64,000 nt of DNA, taken from the NCBI GenBank assembly GCA_025056215.1, contig JANWWC010000003.1, positions 186,001 through 250,000 of the forward strand. Direction: 5' to 3'. The position numbers and the translations under genes are program-made. Below the pieces are notes generated by a model. That model made no database searches. It was not told the origin of the DNA and worked only from the letters and a program-made list of their open reading frames with translations. The DNA comes from Cytophagales bacterium (GTDB lineage: Bacteria; Bacteroidota; Bacteroidia; Cytophagales; Flammeovirgaceae). Shown here piece by piece: positions 1 through 10,281 of this stretch. Position 1 is the first letter of the stretch. Every line of letters begins with the position of its first letter.

Positions 1-1
1 A

Positions 2-796
2 GCGGTTTTACCTTTTCATCATCAAAGTTTAATCTGCTCCATGATGAGAAATGTGTTAGGAATTTCGTATTCTTACGAAAACACATTTTTTAGTTTTTCT
101 GGTCTGAAAGGGCAAACCAAAGTAGGAAGGGATGGACTTCACTACTTTTCTAAAAGAGTGACATTGGTTTTCTCAGGTTTGGAAAAAAGCTTTATGGATA
201 AGCTTATTGAGCGCTTCTTTTTCTTTCCTGAAATACGACTTGGCGATTTGATTTTAGCACCTGAATATGTAGAACAAGAACATCACGAGCCTCTAGGTAA
301 AGAAGTGCGATACTTGTGTATTTCTCCTTTAGTAGTTTATCATGGAACAAGTATCAGCAAAAATAAGGAGTTTATTCACCCTACTACAGATGTATTTTCA
401 GATTTATTATATGAATCTACCATTTTAAGAATGGAGCGCTCTGGTATTTTCAAACCTTACGAAATAAGCTCTTTATTTAAATTTCAACTCTCTCCAGATA
501 TCCAGTATTTAGAAAGAATACAATTATCAGAAAAAAAATTTGCTCGTATTTATAGTACTATTTATAAGAATGAAATCAAAGAAATTCGAGGCTATACATT
601 TCCGTTCACTCTATATGCAGATCCAATTGTCCAAGAGTTCGTATATTGCAATGGATTTGGAGAATTAACTCAAAATGGTTTTGGTTTGTTAGACTTAGCA
701 GAAAGTTCTTTAGTAAAAAGAGAAATATACTACGGGAAACCAGACGAAGAAACTGACTACTCTTCTCTTGAAGATACACGCTTTAATAAATTATAA
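2..796 (+). CDS. cas6: Cas6-like CRISPR RNA endoribonuclease, 5' end outside window
   Basis: Cas6 cuts CRISPR precursor RNA inside the repeat to make guide RNAs. The frame stays open to the left edge, so the gene starts outside the window; the ATG at 41 is probably internal because the residues before it (a leucine-proline-phenylalanine and a double histidine) look like the usual Cas6 N-terminus. Seen in the sequence: an N-terminal half with a Phe-Ser-Gly-Leu stretch followed by a second such segment, a central Ser-Pro-Leu-Val-Val segment, and near the C-terminus the glycine-rich loop GFGELTQNGFGLLDL (residues 205-219 from the ATG at 41), which is the hallmark of the family. About 32 residues follow the loop, more than usual. 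It converges with the response regulator gene. No other cas gene or repeat array is visible here. The family call rests on motif recognition only. Confidence 0.75.
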   Translation, partial: AVLPFHHQSLICSMMRNVLGISYSYENTFFSFSGLKGQTKVGRDGLHYFSKRVTLVFSGLEKSFMDKLIERFFFFPEIRLGDLILAPEYVEQEHHEPLGKEVRYLCISPLVVYHGTSISKNKEFIHPTTDVFSDLLYESTILRMERSGIFKPYEISSLFKFQLSPDIQYLERIQLSEKKFARIYSTIYKNEIKEIRGYTFPFTLYADPIVQEFVYCNGFGELTQNGFGLLDLAESSLVKREIYYGKPDEETDYSSLEDTRFNKL

Positions 797-832: not shown

Positions 833-1630
833 TTACCCTGTAATATTAGAAATTGGTGAGAATGTTTGTGAGTTTTCATTTTCTTCTCGTATTACTAGTT
901 TAAAGCCAAGTCCATGAATGTTGATAATTTCTACGTTCTTATCAGCTGACAAATATCTTCTTGCGCGTGAAATAAATACATCTAAACTTCTTCCTTTGTA
1001 ATAGTCGTCATCCCCCCAAATTTCTTGTAAAATAAGCTCTCTTTTTACGACTGTATTTCTTCGCTTGTAAAGAAAAACAAGCAAATCGCACTCGCGAGCA
1101 GTGAGCTTGCGCTCCGAGTCTCCTAGGCGAAGTCTTTGAAACTGTCTATCTAATAAATATTTTCCTATTCGAATTTGATTAGGAAGTACATCTTCAAGCC
1201 GATTAGGCTCCGAAGCTTGTGGATAATGGTGAGAGACTCTTTTTAAAACTGCCTGAACGCGCAAAGAAAGCTCTTCCTGACTAAAAGGCTTAGTAATATA
1301 ATCGTCAGCTCCCATTTTAAAGGCTCTGATTTTATCTTCAGTCATTGACTTAACGGTGAGAAACAAAATTGGAATTTGTGTATTCCTATTTCTAATTTCT
1401 TGCGCTACCGCAAAACCATCTTTTTGAGGCATAAGAATGTCCAAAATGCACAAGTCAAACTTCTCATGCTGAAAAACATCTAATGCTTGAAGTCCATTCT
1501 GACACCATTCTACATCGTAACCTTGTACTTCCAAATAACGTTTAAGAACTTTGGCAGATACCTTGTCATCATCAACTAAAAGGATGCGCGCTTGTCGTTG
1601 ATTAGGAAGAATTGTTAGTTCCTTTATCAT
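833..1630 (-). CDS. OmpR/RprY-family response regulator
   Basis: Two-component response regulator that would bind DNA when phosphorylated. Residues about 14-130 form a receiver domain with the acidic cluster at 20-22, the phospho-acceptor Asp64 in the string CILDILMP, and the conserved Lys in the segment ITKPF. Residues about 150-250 form a winged-helix DNA-binding domain of the OmpR/PhoB type. No histidine kinase gene lies beside it, so it is an orphan here; its closest relatives in Bacteroidota are RprY-like regulators. The upstream region has a plausible promoter whose -33 element lies inside a perfect inverted repeat, which may be an operator. The ATG at 1630 gives a short 13-residue lead before the receiver fold, which is normal. 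Confidence 0.9.
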   Translation of the reverse strand: MIKELTILPNQRQARILLVDDDKVSAKVLKRYLEVQGYDVEWCQNGLQALDVFQHEKFDLCILDILMPQKDGFAVAQEIRNRNTQIPILFLTVKSMTEDKIRAFKMGADDYITKPFSQEELSLRVQAVLKRVSHHYPQASEPNRLEDVLPNQIRIGKYLLDRQFQRLRLGDSERKLTARECDLLVFLYKRRNTVVKRELILQEIWGDDDYYKGRSLDVFISRARRYLSADKNVEIINIHGLGFKLVIREENENSQTFSPISNITG

Positions 1631-4454: not shown

Positions 4455-7400
4455 TTATTTTATCCAGAAACCCCAAAAGGACAAATAACTCGTATTTCCA
4501 TCTTTTTCTAATCGAAAGAAATGAGTATTCTCTATGGCTCGAATCATTTCATATTCTGCAGGCACGATAACATTACCTTCTATATCCAACAGTCCATACA
4601 AACGGCTCACCACTGCTTGAAAACAGTTTTTAAGAGATTTGACATCTTCAAATACGATATCGCTGAGCGGGTTTCCATCAGCATCAATCATTTTCCAATT
4701 TCCTTTTCGTACCAATTCCCAACCTATATCTTTGATGATTTCGCCATCTTTTTCATCTTTTATTTTGCGACGCGGGCCATATTCTTCTTCATACAACTGT
4801 TTTTTGCTTTTTGTAAAAGGAAGACGCACGGTTCTGCCATTTACATCTCGAATGAGTTCCCACATTTCGCCACGCTTAGCAAAAGCAATATTTCCTTGAA
4901 AATCTGTTACTTCATCATGCTTTACGAAATAGGCAGGAATTCCATTAGTTTTGAGATGACATTCGCCTGTAAGCGTTTGGACTGCCACTCTTCCCTTTTT
5001 AAAGACAGATTTTGCTTTGGCTGTAATGGCAAACTGTCCTACTTTTTCACCCTTTGCATTAATAATCAGACTATCGTTTACGATAGCGTATCCATCAGAA
5101 AAATCTCCTGCCGAAAGATATTGAGGCGCAATCACCCATTTGCCAGTTTTGTCGATATAACCCCATTTTCCTTTTAGGTTCACTGCTGCTTTTCCATCCG
5201 AGAAAGAGCGTGCCGCTGCGAACTGCGGCGCAATTATTAATGCTCCTGTTTCTGATAGATAACCGTACTGAGCAATATTTTTTTCTACTAACTTAACAAC
5301 AGCCAACCCTTCTGAAAAAGGTTCAATCTGCGCATAAATAGGCTTTACGACTACTTTTCCTGTAGCGTTCTGCAAGCCATAAAGTTTATCTTTTTGGAAT
5401 ATTTTTAAAGCGGTTTCTATTTGCAGTGTATCAGGTTGTTGGGTAAGAAAATTTCCTTGAGCATCTACATAAAATGTTTTGGGTTGATTTACAAAAACTT
5501 CTATCCAATTTTCAGTAATGCTTGTAAAGCGCATTCCGTCGTACAAAAAAGGAATTATGATTTTTTGCGCCGTATCTATCACGCCGTATTTTCCGTTTTG
5601 GCGCGCAATCATTTTCCCTTCTCGTATCTCACTCAAATACTCATACTGACATGGAACTTGAATTTTACCTCGGTGGGTGATGTAGCCATATTTTCCATTT
5701 TGCATCACGATTGCAAAGCCAGTACTATCCGAATAAATCTTTTCAAATCCTTGAATTTCATCGTATACAATCGGAACAACTACTTTTCCGTTTCGGTCGA
5801 TGTAGCCCAAACGCTTGCCTTCATATACGCGCGCAATACCACGGTGTTTTGTCCAAACTTCTTCAAAGTTAGTTACATTAGTGTACGAAGGAGTTAAGAT
5901 GATTTTTCCTTCATAATCCAAAAATCCTACTTTTCCGTTTTGAATGATGCGCGCAAGTCCTTGTTTGGTCGAATATACTTTTTCAAACCCTATAATGTCT
6001 TCATATACAGGTGGAATTATTTCTGAGCCTTGCCTGTTTACATACCCATATTTTCGGAATTTTTCTTGCTTGATTCCATTTTCTTCGACAATATATTTTT
6101 CATTTGCAATTCTGGCGATGTTTCCTTCAAATTTCCAAAGATAATCTGCTTGAATAACTGTGGGTACAATTTCCTTACCTTTGGTGTCTAATACGCCCCA
6201 TTTTCCTTCTTTGATGCAACGCGCCTCTTTACCTTCAAAAGGATAAATCATTGAATACACAAAAGCTGTTAGAGGCTGATTTTTAACAGAATACAACGCC
6301 CATTTTCCTTCTGCACCTTTTCCTTTTTTGATGCGAAGCGCTCCATCGGCAGTAGGTACATCTATTCCTTGCCATTCAAACGGAATAACAGCATTTCCTT
6401 TTGTATCGAGCAAGCCAAAGTTTCCGTTCTTTTTGGCAGATGCGTATCCATTTGCAAAATCAGAAGCTAACTCATATTCAGCAGGAATTACCAATTGAGC
6501 CGATGTATTGATATAACCATACCGGTTGGCAAGTTGCACCCACGCCAAGCGATAACTAAAATTTCCGACATTTTGGATTTTAACCGCTTTTCCCCCTATA
6601 TTGATTTCTTTGATAATATTTCCTTTTTTATCTATGAGTGCATCATAAAGCGTATCAAGCGTAAGTCGAGCGTACTGACTGGTTGCAAAATCTTCTAATA
6701 CGATTTCTTTAGCATCTGCTTTGAACAAGATTTTTCCACTGGTATCTATTACATAACATTCATCTATTCGCAAAGATACTTTAGCATCTTTTTTTTCAGT
6801 TCTGACACGCTTAGCAGCATAAAGTTGGGACGTAGAATCAAAAACGACATCCCAAAAAGTAAGCGTATCTAACAGATTTCTGCCAATAGCATCGGTAAGT
6901 TTATAGTCGAAGCCTTCTTGAATCCATCTAGGTTTTTTGGCATCAGGGACTGTTTGTAAAATCTTAGAATGCGCTTTAGCGAGTTCAGCTTTTCTTGTTT
7001 GAATTAAATGAGTTTCATTATTAAACTCTTGTTTGGATACCAAATTTCCCGATGAATCTAAATAAAAAATCGTAATTCCTTTGAGCTTATCGCCGCGAAT
7101 AGGCTGTAAAATCCCTTTTTCAGTATTTATAGGATTCTCAAAACTAAACTTCTCGTAAATTGCTTCTGCTAAAACAGTGCCGTTTTTTTGCAAAATGCCT
7201 TGTTTACTGTTTTTAAAGAAATAAGTAATAGGGGCATTTTCAAAGCGGTCTATACGGTCGTATTCATTTGATAAGATTTCCTTTCCGTCCGTGCTTACAA
7301 CTCCAAAACGGTCGTTTCGATATGTTTTTACTAAGGATGGAGTTAATATTTCCAAAGCATCGTACTGAAGAGCAATCAAGACTTTTCCCGTACTATCAAT

Positions 7401-7712
7401 TAATCCACAGCGATCTTGTTGGCACACTGCAAAATATTCTGGTGTTAGTATTTGTATTTTTTCGTAAGTATCAGGAGTAATCACGGCCTTTCCATCTTGA
7501 CGGAAAACTCCCACAAACCCATTTTTACGCGCTAACAAATAACCTTTTGCATTAAAATCGGTCATAGATTGATATTCGTATGGCAAAACAAGCTCTCCTT
7601 TTAAGTTGATAGCTCCCCAAAGATTGTTTTGGCGCTTGGGAAGCAATTGTGCTTTGGTCAGATGCAAAGTCAGAAAGTTGGCAATCACTATAAAGCCCAA
7701 AAACGATTTCAT
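4455..7712 (-). CDS. Large WG-repeat secreted protein
   Basis: A 1085-residue protein with an N-terminal signal peptide (about residues 1-21, ending in an Ala-Gln) followed almost entirely by WG/KWG repeats: at least sixteen copies of a pattern like GKWGYID, then a Gly-Lys, then a hydrophobic-Pro-x-x-Tyr segment, spaced about 45-60 residues. Repeats are clear near residues 30-190, 395-500 and 540-880, and again at the C-terminus. Such repeats are thought to fold as beta propellers or solenoids and mediate binding; no enzymatic motif is seen. There is no lipobox, so periplasm, outer membrane or secretion are all possible. Function unknown. It is separated from argG by 69 bases and may have its own promoter. 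Confidence 0.85.
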   Translation of the reverse strand: MKSFLGFIVIANFLTLHLTKAQLLPKRQNNLWGAINLKGELVLPYEYQSMTDFNAKGYLLARKNGFVGVFRQDGKAVITPDTYEKIQILTPEYFAVCQQDRCGLIDSTGKVLIALQYDALEILTPSLVKTYRNDRFGVVSTDGKEILSNEYDRIDRFENAPITYFFKNSKQGILQKNGTVLAEAIYEKFSFENPINTEKGILQPIRGDKLKGITIFYLDSSGNLVSKQEFNNETHLIQTRKAELAKAHSKILQTVPDAKKPRWIQEGFDYKLTDAIGRNLLDTLTFWDVVFDSTSQLYAAKRVRTEKKDAKVSLRIDECYVIDTSGKILFKADAKEIVLEDFATSQYARLTLDTLYDALIDKKGNIIKEINIGGKAVKIQNVGNFSYRLAWVQLANRYGYINTSAQLVIPAEYELASDFANGYASAKKNGNFGLLDTKGNAVIPFEWQGIDVPTADGALRIKKGKGAEGKWALYSVKNQPLTAFVYSMIYPFEGKEARCIKEGKWGVLDTKGKEIVPTVIQADYLWKFEGNIARIANEKYIVEENGIKQEKFRKYGYVNRQGSEIIPPVYEDIIGFEKVYSTKQGLARIIQNGKVGFLDYEGKIILTPSYTNVTNFEEVWTKHRGIARVYEGKRLGYIDRNGKVVVPIVYDEIQGFEKIYSDSTGFAIVMQNGKYGYITHRGKIQVPCQYEYLSEIREGKMIARQNGKYGVIDTAQKIIIPFLYDGMRFTSITENWIEVFVNQPKTFYVDAQGNFLTQQPDTLQIETALKIFQKDKLYGLQNATGKVVVKPIYAQIEPFSEGLAVVKLVEKNIAQYGYLSETGALIIAPQFAAARSFSDGKAAVNLKGKWGYIDKTGKWVIAPQYLSAGDFSDGYAIVNDSLIINAKGEKVGQFAITAKAKSVFKKGRVAVQTLTGECHLKTNGIPAYFVKHDEVTDFQGNIAFAKRGEMWELIRDVNGRTVRLPFTKSKKQLYEEEYGPRRKIKDEKDGEIIKDIGWELVRKGNWKMIDADGNPLSDIVFEDVKSLKNCFQAVVSRLYGLLDIEGNVIVPAEYEMIRAIENTHFFRLEKDGNTSYLSFWGFWIK

Positions 7713-7974
7713 AAAATTTTTACAGTTTAAACTAATAGCCCCTCCTACTTCCTAACAAACTCAGAATATCTATTGCAAATTAATTGTTAGATGCGCATTT
7801 TTAATTGTAATATTCGCCAGCTTTTTTGATTGAAATCCATGAGGCTCTTAGATTTGGCAGTTTTAGTTTCCACAAATTACTTAATAAGCGCAATGTGGGA
7901 ACCCGGCATTTTTGAAGTCATCCAATGAATATTAGACTCCATTAAGTACCTTGCTAAAAAGTTATCAAAATAAC
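7713..7974. other. Intergenic region without a supported gene
   Basis: 262 bases between two minus-strand genes. I see no RNA gene or strong terminator. A 29-codon plus-strand reading frame (7839-7928) exists but has no supporting features. The part nearest the WG-repeat gene should contain its promoter, but no clear TAnnTTTG element at good spacing was found. Confidence 0.5.
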
Positions 7975-8412
7975 TCATTTAGTAGAGATTCTAAATCCCA
8001 TCAATTTCAATACCCATGCATTCAATAGAATCATAAGTGCCATCCAAATTATGCAAACCACAATTAAAGGAGTAACAAAAGGATTAAAATAAAGATAGGA
8101 ACACAACCCTATAAATAACAACCTTAAGAAAATGTCCCCTATCAAATAAAATTTTGGAAATCGCTTATAAAGTTTTATAATAGTCCATAAAAACCAAAGA
8201 ATCGCTACACCATTAATAAAATAGACTGACTGAATATCTCTATCTTGATAATCAGGGAAAACAGTAAAATATTCGAAAAAAATATCAGCAATTTGAATTG
8301 CGAATAACACTTGCATTGCAATAATAGGAACCGTGAACAGACCCGAAAACACCAACTCTACAGTGTTTAAAATAGCCAACAGATACCGAATATTGGAACG
8401 CTTCATACGCAA
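7975..8412 (-). CDS. Small hydrophobic membrane protein of unknown function
   Basis: A 145-residue protein with probably four membrane helices: about residues 9-35, 66-82, 90-108 and 112-134, with short charged connections and a basic N-terminus. I do not recognise a family. The start ATG at 8412 is followed by a second Met two codons later (MRM), so either could be used. It is flanked by the WG-repeat gene downstream and by the ilvB terminator region upstream, so it is probably transcribed on its own. Confidence 0.65.
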   Translation of the reverse strand: MRMKRSNIRYLLAILNTVELVFSGLFTVPIIAMQVLFAIQIADIFFEYFTVFPDYQDRDIQSVYFINGVAILWFLWTIIKLYKRFPKFYLIGDIFLRLLFIGLCSYLYFNPFVTPLIVVCIIWMALMILLNAWVLKLMGFRISTK

Positions 8413-8483
8413 AAAATGAAATTCAACATTTATTCCTAAATATAAGAGTTGAAGAATAAAATCAATATATTCAGAAGCAGAAA

Positions 8484-8517
8484 AAAATTAAAAAAAGCCT
8501 CTCACAAGTGAGAGGCT
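8484..8517 (-). terminator. Rho-independent terminator of ilvB
   Basis: A perfect 10-bp stem (8496-8505 with 8508-8517, core GCCTCTCAC/GTGAGAGGC) is followed on the minus strand by a run of Ts (complement of the A-run at about 8484-8496). It lies 28 bases beyond the ilvB stop codon. Confidence 0.85.
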
Positions 8518-8544
8518 AGATTTTAAAAAAATTTTTTTGAAAAA

Positions 8545-10281
8545 CTACTCTAAACGAATATCTGCTACTGAAGCACCGGCAGGTACCATAGGAAATACAT
8601 TTTCTTCCTTTTCTACCACTACTTCTAAAAAGTATGGCTTTTCAGAAGCTAACAATCGGTCGAGAGCACTAGAGAGCTCTTCGCGCTCTCGTACTCTTTC
8701 GGCCTGAATAAAAAACCCTTCTACAATCTTAACAAAATCAGGATTGACCATTTCTGTAAACGAGTACCGGTTGTCAAAAAAGAGTTGCTGCCATTGGCGC
8801 ACCATTCCTAAGAAATCGTTATTTAAAACAATCACTTTGACAGCAATGTTGTATTGCATAATAGTTCCGAGCTCCTGGAGTGTCATCTGGAAACCTCCGT
8901 CACCGATGATAGCAATTACTTGCTTTTCTGGGGCAGAAATTTTAGCGCCCATAGCAGCTGGCAAGCAAAAACCCATTGTGCCGGCGCCTCCTGAAGTAAT
9001 GTTTGTATTTTGCTCTTTAAAGCGATAGTAACGAGACGTTACCATTTGGTGTTGCCCTACATCAGTAACAATAACGGCACGTCCATCAGTTTTTTCAGAG
9101 AGCATTTTGATAACCTCTGCCATTTTAATTTTATCGGTAATGGGAGCAAAATCTTTGGCTATTACTTTTTGATACTCAACCTGGTCATATTCTTTAAATT
9201 TCGCATACCACTCTGGATAGGTTTTTTTCTGAAGCAATGGTAAAAGATATGCCAAAGATTCTTTACAATCTCCTAAAACTGGAATATCTGCTTTGACATT
9301 TTTATTGATTTCCGCAGGATCGATTTCAAAATGAATAACTTTAGCTTGTTTAGCATAAGTGTTCAGATCTCCTGTTACGCGATCATCAAAACGCATGCCT
9401 ACCGCAATAAGAACGTCACACTGATTAGTTAGCACATTAGGAGCGTAATTCCCATGCATGCCTAAATACCCGACGTAGTTAGGATGATCGGTAGGAACAG
9501 CGCCAAGGCCCAGTAAAGTACTCGCCGCTGGAATTCCAGATTTCTCTAACACTTGTAATAATTCTTTTTGAGCATTTCCTAGCAAAACGCCATGCCCTAC
9601 TAACATAAGAGGCTGCTTCGCTTGATTGATAAGTTTAGCAGCTTGCTCTACGGCGGCTAAATCTGTTTTGAGTTTAGGCGTATAACTACGAACACTTGTG
9701 CATTTTCGATAATTAAAATTAAGTCTTGCAAATTGTGCATTTTTAGTAATATCGATCAAAACAGGTCCGGGTCTTCCTGTTCGAGCTATGTAAAAAGCTT
9801 TTGCAATGGCTTCAGGAATTTCTTCAGCAGAGGTAATTTGATAATTCCATTTTGTAATAGGCATAGTGATTCCGATCACATCTACTTCTTGGAAAGCATC
9901 TGTTCCAAGAAGGTGACGTGCCACTTGCCCTGTAATACACACCACAGGAGTAGAATCAATCATCGCATCCGCAATCCCTGTAACGAGATTAGTAGCTCCT
10001 GGACCGGAAGTTGCAAGCGCCACGCCTACTTTGTCAGGGCGAACCCGCGCATAACCTTGTGCTGCGTGAATAGCACCTTGTTCATGTCGAACTAAAATAT
10101 GGTTAATTTGATCCCGATAATCGTACAAGGCATCGTATACAGGCATAATGGCGCCACCAGGGTAGCCAAAAATAGTATCCACTCCCTCCGCAAGGAGCGA
10201 TAAAACTACGGCTTCTGCACCTGTAATATTCTCTTTTTTAGTGATGGGAGCGATGCGTTCAGATTTGGTAAGTGCTTCCAT
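8545..10281 (-). CDS. ilvB: Acetolactate synthase large (catalytic) subunit
   Basis: Thiamine-diphosphate enzyme that condenses two pyruvates, or pyruvate and 2-oxobutyrate, in the first common step of valine, leucine and isoleucine synthesis. Seen: an N-terminal pyrimidine-binding domain with FGYPGGAIMP and the catalytic Glu in RHEQGAIHAAQGYAR, a central domain, and a C-terminal domain with the thiamine/metal motif GDGGFQM followed about 25 residues later by the LNN pair. I chose the ATG at 10281; an in-frame ATG at 10302 would add seven residues. The small subunit (ilvN), ilvC and ilvD are not adjacent, unlike many Bacteroidota where these genes cluster. A strong terminator follows the gene. 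Confidence 0.95.
   Translation of the reverse strand: MEALTKSERIAPITKKENITGAEAVVLSLLAEGVDTIFGYPGGAIMPVYDALYDYRDQINHILVRHEQGAIHAAQGYARVRPDKVGVALATSGPGATNLVTGIADAMIDSTPVVCITGQVARHLLGTDAFQEVDVIGITMPITKWNYQITSAEEIPEAIAKAFYIARTGRPGPVLIDITKNAQFARLNFNYRKCTSVRSYTPKLKTDLAAVEQAAKLINQAKQPLMLVGHGVLLGNAQKELLQVLEKSGIPAASTLLGLGAVPTDHPNYVGYLGMHGNYAPNVLTNQCDVLIAVGMRFDDRVTGDLNTYAKQAKVIHFEIDPAEINKNVKADIPVLGDCKESLAYLLPLLQKKTYPEWYAKFKEYDQVEYQKVIAKDFAPITDKIKMAEVIKMLSEKTDGRAVIVTDVGQHQMVTSRYYRFKEQNTNITSGGAGTMGFCLPAAMGAKISAPEKQVIAIIGDGGFQMTLQELGTIMQYNIAVKVIVLNNDFLGMVRQWQQLFFDNRYSFTEMVNPDFVKIVEGFFIQAERVREREELSSALDRLLASEKPYFLEVVVEKEENVFPMVPAGASVADIRLE

Follow-up and report, generated by a model that had tools for sequence, protein, structure and literature searches.

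A solitary Cas6-like gene of Cytophagales outside CRISPR-Cas loci and without the canonical catalytic residues

Does the Cas6-like open reading frame at the left edge of this DNA mark the end of a CRISPR-Cas locus, or does the gene stand alone? The window, the whole 64,000-nucleotide stretch of a Cytophagales contig that was analysed, cuts the frame. An earlier note on the same DNA proposed a CRISPR-Cas locus directly to the left, named a solitary Cas6 as the alternative, and recommended a search of the left-hand sequence for cas genes and repeats and a profile and fold check of the protein.

The gene and its surroundings

The frame that reaches the window edge is genuine and ends in a stop codon (794-796). 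The full gene, here named cas6o, spans G000:C11:185963-186796 in the window's genome, starts with GTG and predicts a protein of 277 aa. The window holds the 3′ 95% of it, with 13 codons outside and the GTG start 38 nt to the left. Features are listed by window coordinates.

1..796, + strand: solitary Cas6-like gene cas6o, residues 14-277 and stop codon (start at G000:C11:185963).
71..76, + strand: codons of residues 37 and 38, between which CRISPR-linked Cas6 carries about 13 extra residues with the catalytic 'LH' and Lys (placed by alignment; Y31/H46/K52 in Pfu Cas6, His-Tyr-Lys triad).
107..115, + strand: invariant K49-G50-Q51 codons in FSGLKGQ, a motif that marks the orthologous family.
533..547, + strand: KKFAR codons, with K191, K192 and R195 invariant, a conserved basic patch.
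587..595, + strand: invariant R209-G210-Y211 codons.
653..685, + strand: glycine-rich loop GFGELTQNGFG, with G231, G233, G239 and G241 invariant, a hallmark of RAMP/Cas6 proteins.
833..1630, - strand: OmpR-type response regulator convergent with cas6o, a neighbour in its own genome only and not a conserved partner.

The Cas6-like identity proposed from the window is upheld by both sequence and predicted fold. PF01881 (Cas_Cas6_C) matches the predicted protein at 2.9e-15 with 57.6 bits, above the curated Pfam cut-off of 23, which places it in the Cas6 superfamily, and it also matches all 35 orthologues checked. The only other Pfam domain is a weak PF21350, and the N- and C-terminal domains of Cas6b (PF17955/PF17262) are absent from the Pfam search. 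A PADLOC model for Cas6b (PDLC01782) matches at 6.8e-25, and TIGR01877 matches at 4.5e-14 with 53.4 bits, narrowly below the NCBIfam equivalog cut-off of 58.65. In a search with the single cas6o protein, the closest sequences were 3qjj and 3ufc, both Pyrococcus Cas6-like proteins.

For the Flexithrix dorotheae orthologue, the AF2 model (pLDDT 91.2) has 3qjj as its top PDB match (Z 25.2, rmsd 2.2, 225 aa), and 3qjj also heads the matches (Z 23.4) for a model of the 264 residues encoded within the window (pLDDT 83.6). Both models then match 3ufc, 5yi6 and Pfu Cas6, so that Cas6 structures are the best matches in each case, and nothing was found in a viral fold library at E <= 0.001. The models and the invariant glycines together show two RAMP (ferredoxin-like) domains and a C-terminal glycine-rich loop. 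The note had read this loop correctly, and the tail behind it is indeed longer than usual, at about 33 aa, and unconserved.

The expected locus is not there. The 20 kb to the left of the window hold housekeeping and similar ordinary genes, among them ppiD, atpA, ftsZ, ftsA and murF-alr; neither a cas gene nor a repeat array was found there. To the right lie the response regulator, then an FtsX-type permease and argininosuccinate synthase. A search of the window turned up no CRISPR-type array, as the note had stated of repeats, and Rfam gave no match there. The cas operon with arrays that accompanies canonical Cas6 was missing from the left 20 kb and the window, and 102 orthologous loci have a ychF-type context instead. 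There is thus no CRISPR locus beside cas6o, and it is a solitary gene. The response regulator is convergent with cas6o, as had been described, but it cannot be the right border of a CRISPR locus because no such locus is present.

The window's genome does contain CRISPR elsewhere. The one cas1 found sits in a cas9-cas1-cas2 operon at the end of contig C10, in a type II locus (L099 10600-16427, G000:C10) that is cut by the contig end. The array has at least 9 repeat units of 75 nt, with a repeat containing GTTGTGCAAATATCACAAAACTTTCTTTTGAAAGCAAACCACAAC, and is the only array in the 1.69 of 2.83 Mb (about 60%) of this genome that was scanned. The TTGAAA-triplet array pattern gave noisy results and served as supporting evidence alone. 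Maturation of crRNA in type II systems relies on RNase III and tracrRNA and does not use Cas6. Genome-wide, no RAMP protein, no cas3_core match above cut-off and no second Cas6_C domain were found; cas3_core matches below the cut-off are ordinary helicases and were disregarded.

Orthologues, descent and expression signals

One strong relative, sharing 38-60% identity, is present in 40 of 58 related genomes, and one copy per genome was found in 143 of 291 Cytophagales genomes. Scores of these copies range from 265 to 416 bits. In a draw of 395 genomes from the phylum there is a clean gap between scores of >=380 bits inside the order and <=91 bits elsewhere, the latter including other Cas6. A query with the single protein recovered no related loci, and an alignment query was required. 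In GTDB genomes 378 stretches encode the family, and the best 80 of these belong to named Cytophagales (Flammeovirga, Flexithrix, Algoriphagus, Echinicola, Cyclobacterium, Thermoflexibacter, Sporocytophaga and others) or allied MAGs; two MAGs labelled Thalassobius/Thalassovita among these 80 look mislabelled. In the genomes sampled here, the family is confined to Cytophagales. Whole families (f11 and f13) lack cas6o, implying losses or a later gain.

The usual gene order is DUF3276, AI-2E transporter, ychF, cas6o. Of 102 loci, 75 have ychF ahead of cas6o on the same strand; ychF belongs to a GTPase family and has a 50S-ribosome-binding-GTPase domain. Distances between cas6o sequences follow those of ychF (Mantel r 0.83, p 0.001, n=75) and the median dN/dS over 129 pairs is 0.034, which together indicate vertical descent under constraint. 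About 36 residues are invariant among 27 diverse orthologues. In the tree, the orphan Cas6 split from CRISPR-linked Cas6 with support of 100/99; orphan and CRISPR-linked Cas6 within one genome are 17-22% identical, and the mean identity among orphans is 47%.

Two further loci were noted. An orthologue in Bernardetia sp. Wsw4-3y2 (L240, NZ_CP147018.1, 328852-329664), annotated as CRISPR-associated endoribonuclease Cas6 and lacking cas neighbours, lies on a 602-kb replicon named a plasmid, which may be a second chromosome as it also carries purQ and rimM. A type I locus (L101, G056:C2) includes two adjacent cas6 genes (7177-8004 and 8001-8669), of which one is a canonical gene that has the catalytic LH motif and the other, lacking LH, resembles the solitary family. 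The LH-less gene groups with the solitary family on a very long branch and is a possible hint at its origin.

Initiation is unusual across the family. Among the best 80 of 378 orthologues (L115-L194), 51 start with GTG, 29 with TTG and none with ATG (the L127 start was set by reading, at a GTG one codon upstream of the start given by the script), whereas ychF at the same loci has an ATG start in 74 of 75. In the set of 40 genomes, 33 have a non-ATG start. The start position is fixed by the invariant R-x-R-x-x-F of the first strand, and weak initiation kept across the family hints at translational control. Upstream of cas6o, 51 of 80 loci have a -7 element of the Bacteroidetes type (TAnnTTTG), against 17.7 expected from shuffles; in most cases it is placed 64-85 nt ahead of the start codon, and cas6o thus probably has its own promoter. 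RNAalifold found no structure in the 80 leaders, and a conserved 5′-leader hairpin as a self-target was rejected.

Active site, CRISPR content of carriers and rival readings

Catalysis by Pfu Cas6 involves Tyr31, His46 and Lys52 (PMC3652601), and a second source describes a His-Tyr-Lys catalytic triad for Cas6 (PMC3727216). Most CRISPR-linked Cas6 of Cytophagales keep the catalytic motif, for example ADFLHNSGYSVGQKRFKFFTF. The outlier is the second Cas6 (PF01881) of genome G043 (L238 9305-10342, - strand; G043:C1:1385443), in which LR replaces the LH of CRISPR Cas6; that genome gave no cas1, RAMP or cas3 match above cut-off. In the alignment, about 13 residues including LH are missing from all solitary orthologues compared, which also have no Tyr (SSWIYK) and no Lys before FTFS. 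The His, Tyr and Lys of canonical Pfu-type Cas6 are thus lacking from the aligned orthologues, and the Tyr and Lys positions are unconserved. Common to the solitary orthologues are R2, R4, H20, Q21, K49-G50-Q51, K191, K192, R195, R209-G-Y and the glycine loop. H20 is probably structural, as its counterpart in the alignment to Pfu Cas6 is the His of VPYNHQ.

To judge from these residues, the solitary family has likely lost RNA cleavage. The strongest rival is that cas6o is an atypical but active endoribonuclease that cuts a specific non-CRISPR cellular RNA via its basic residues, as in mRNA or small-RNA processing. The fold, the glycine loop and the invariant basic residues are all retained, and an atypical site could be built from K49, K191, K192, R195 and R209. 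Loss of the triad is also no proof of lost cleavage because His-less active Cas6 exist, with the Sulfolobus enzyme cleaving RNA without a His (PMC3652601). However, none of the three usual triad residues (His, Tyr and Lys) is present, and the closest folds include a P. horikoshii homologue that is called inactive (PMC3727216). An active enzyme is considered rather unlikely.

The CRISPR content of the 40 carriers bears on whether cas6o serves immunity. Class-1 markers, defined as a cas1 of the high-scoring kind, a RAMP, a cas3_core match above cut-off or a locus read directly, are present in 19 of 40. In 18 of these 19 a separate Cas6 was found at or near the class-1 locus, Cas6b (PF17955/PF17262) in seven and a PF01881-type in eleven; in the nineteenth (G047) the loci are cut by contig ends. 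Twelve carriers (G002, G003, G007, G008, G012, G014, G021, G032, G034, G035, G037 and G050) have no cas1, RAMP, cas3_core above cut-off or second PF01881 match, and one of them, G021, is a single-contig assembly of 9.0 Mb. In two more (G001 and G043) the sole marker is a second Cas6. The remaining seven, including the window's genome, have only a low-scoring cas1, and cas9 was confirmed in the window's genome alone.

The second Cas6-like gene of G001 (L100 7992-8807, - strand; G001:C1:2165553) is itself solitary, the surrounding 8 kb or so being free of cas genes, and differs from the first (28% identity). In G005, a class-1 CRISPR locus (L239 8817-18875, G005:C1) has its own Cas6 and array, and PF01867 detected no cas1 in the genome.

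Cas6 is able to act on distant arrays in type III systems, and cas6o might be a trans-acting crRNA factor that serves arrays elsewhere or on passing mobile elements. Besides this general precedent of action at a distance, class-1 markers are somewhat more frequent among carriers (19/40) than among non-carriers (3-4/18), a comparison in which many non-carriers are small or incomplete and kinship is uncontrolled; the difference also counts against a gene independent of CRISPR. Against it stand the other Cas6 owned by nearly every class-1 carrier, the twelve carriers with no class-1 marker, the type II array as the only one in the 1.69 Mb scanned of the window's genome, and the loss of the canonical catalytic residues, which make this role quite improbable. 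Supply in trans to type III loci specifically seemed likely from the eight class-1 carriers in which PF01881 gave no second Cas6, but was rejected because seven of these loci proved to have Cas6b.

A decaying, functionless remnant of a lost CRISPR locus would explain the missing cas neighbours, but is ruled out for practical purposes by the low dN/dS, the invariant residues and the single copy in so many genomes of the order. Equally hard to credit is the edge of a complete CRISPR-Cas locus, which has only the Cas6 homology in its favour and is contradicted by the left 20 kb.

The note's own alternative of a solitary Cas6 was therefore the correct one, and what the window could not reveal is that the gene is an orthologue conserved across the order from which the canonical catalytic residues are gone. 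With a Cas6 fold, orthology, a single copy, long purifying selection and loss of the His/Tyr/Lys set, and with no cas genes around it, occurrence in genomes lacking class-1 markers and a separate Cas6 in class-1 genomes, cas6o is probably a domesticated, CRISPR-independent Cas6 homologue, single-copy across much of Cytophagales, whose product is probably a non-cleaving RNA-binding protein. The protein would hold a specific cellular RNA via the cleft between its two domains, the glycine loop and the conserved basic residues, and the bound RNA would not be cut by the canonical mechanism. Its action on a cellular transcript or small RNA may be that of an RNA-binding protein, a chaperone-like factor or a regulator. 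As a lead only, the adjacency to ychF and the near-universal GTG/TTG start point to a low-dose, translation-linked role. On balance, a fuller account is also favoured, in which a Cas6 captured early in Cytophagales became a housekeeping RNA-binding regulator, uncoupled from immunity, inherited vertically beside ychF, expressed at a low level from a non-AUG start and dedicated to a cellular RNA partner.

Cas proteins are usually presumed to serve CRISPR. If the domesticated reading is correct, cas6o would be a clear example of exaptation, a Cas6 turned into an ordinary RNA-binding protein of the cell at the depth of a bacterial order, and the RNA bound by a CRISPR-free Cas6 would be directly testable in culturable Flammeovirga, Algoriphagus and Echinicola. 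Pipelines label cas6o 'CRISPR-associated endoribonuclease Cas6', which inflates CRISPR counts in Cytophagales.

Comparison with known systems

The fold and the domain are already known. Searches of the open-licence literature for solitary, orphan or domesticated Cas6, for Cas6 in Cytophagales and for YchF with Cas6 found no paper on the family, though an earlier mention elsewhere is possible, and an order-wide, CRISPR-independent, catalytically altered Cas6 was not found described there.

The closest solved folds are PH0350 of Pyrococcus horikoshii (PDB 3qjj/3qjp), which we take to be PhCas6nc, and the Cas6-related 3ufc of P. furiosus (Z 25.2 and 24.9, about 225 aa aligned). The cas6o family shares with PhCas6nc a Cas6 fold without the canonical catalytic residues. 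PhCas6nc is described as an inactive homologue that binds RNA between its two domains (PMC3727216). PH0350 and 3ufc are archaeal and 22-23% identical to the cas6o protein, whereas cas6o is bacterial, order-wide, single-copy and chromosomal, and often found in CRISPR-free genomes.

Canonical Cas6 (Pfu 3i4h/3pkm, and the type I loci of the same order) has the same fold of two RAMP domains (Z 23.8 to 3i4h), PF01881 and the glycine loop, but cas6o lacks the segment of about 13 aa with the catalytic His, the Tyr and the Lys, and lies outside cas operons. The Cas6b found at type III and type I loci of Cytophagales is likewise a Cas6-type RAMP protein and occurs in some of the same genomes, but is a different family inside cas operons that matches both Cas6b domains (PF17955/PF17262); the PADLOC 'Cas6b' label on cas6o comes from PDLC01782 and not from the models matched by the Cas6b loci. 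The Cas6 of Sulfolobus solfataricus (4ill/4ilm/3zfv) resembles cas6o as a Cas6 without the catalytic His, but its fold is more distant (Z about 12), and it is dimeric and acts on CRISPR repeats (PMC3652601).
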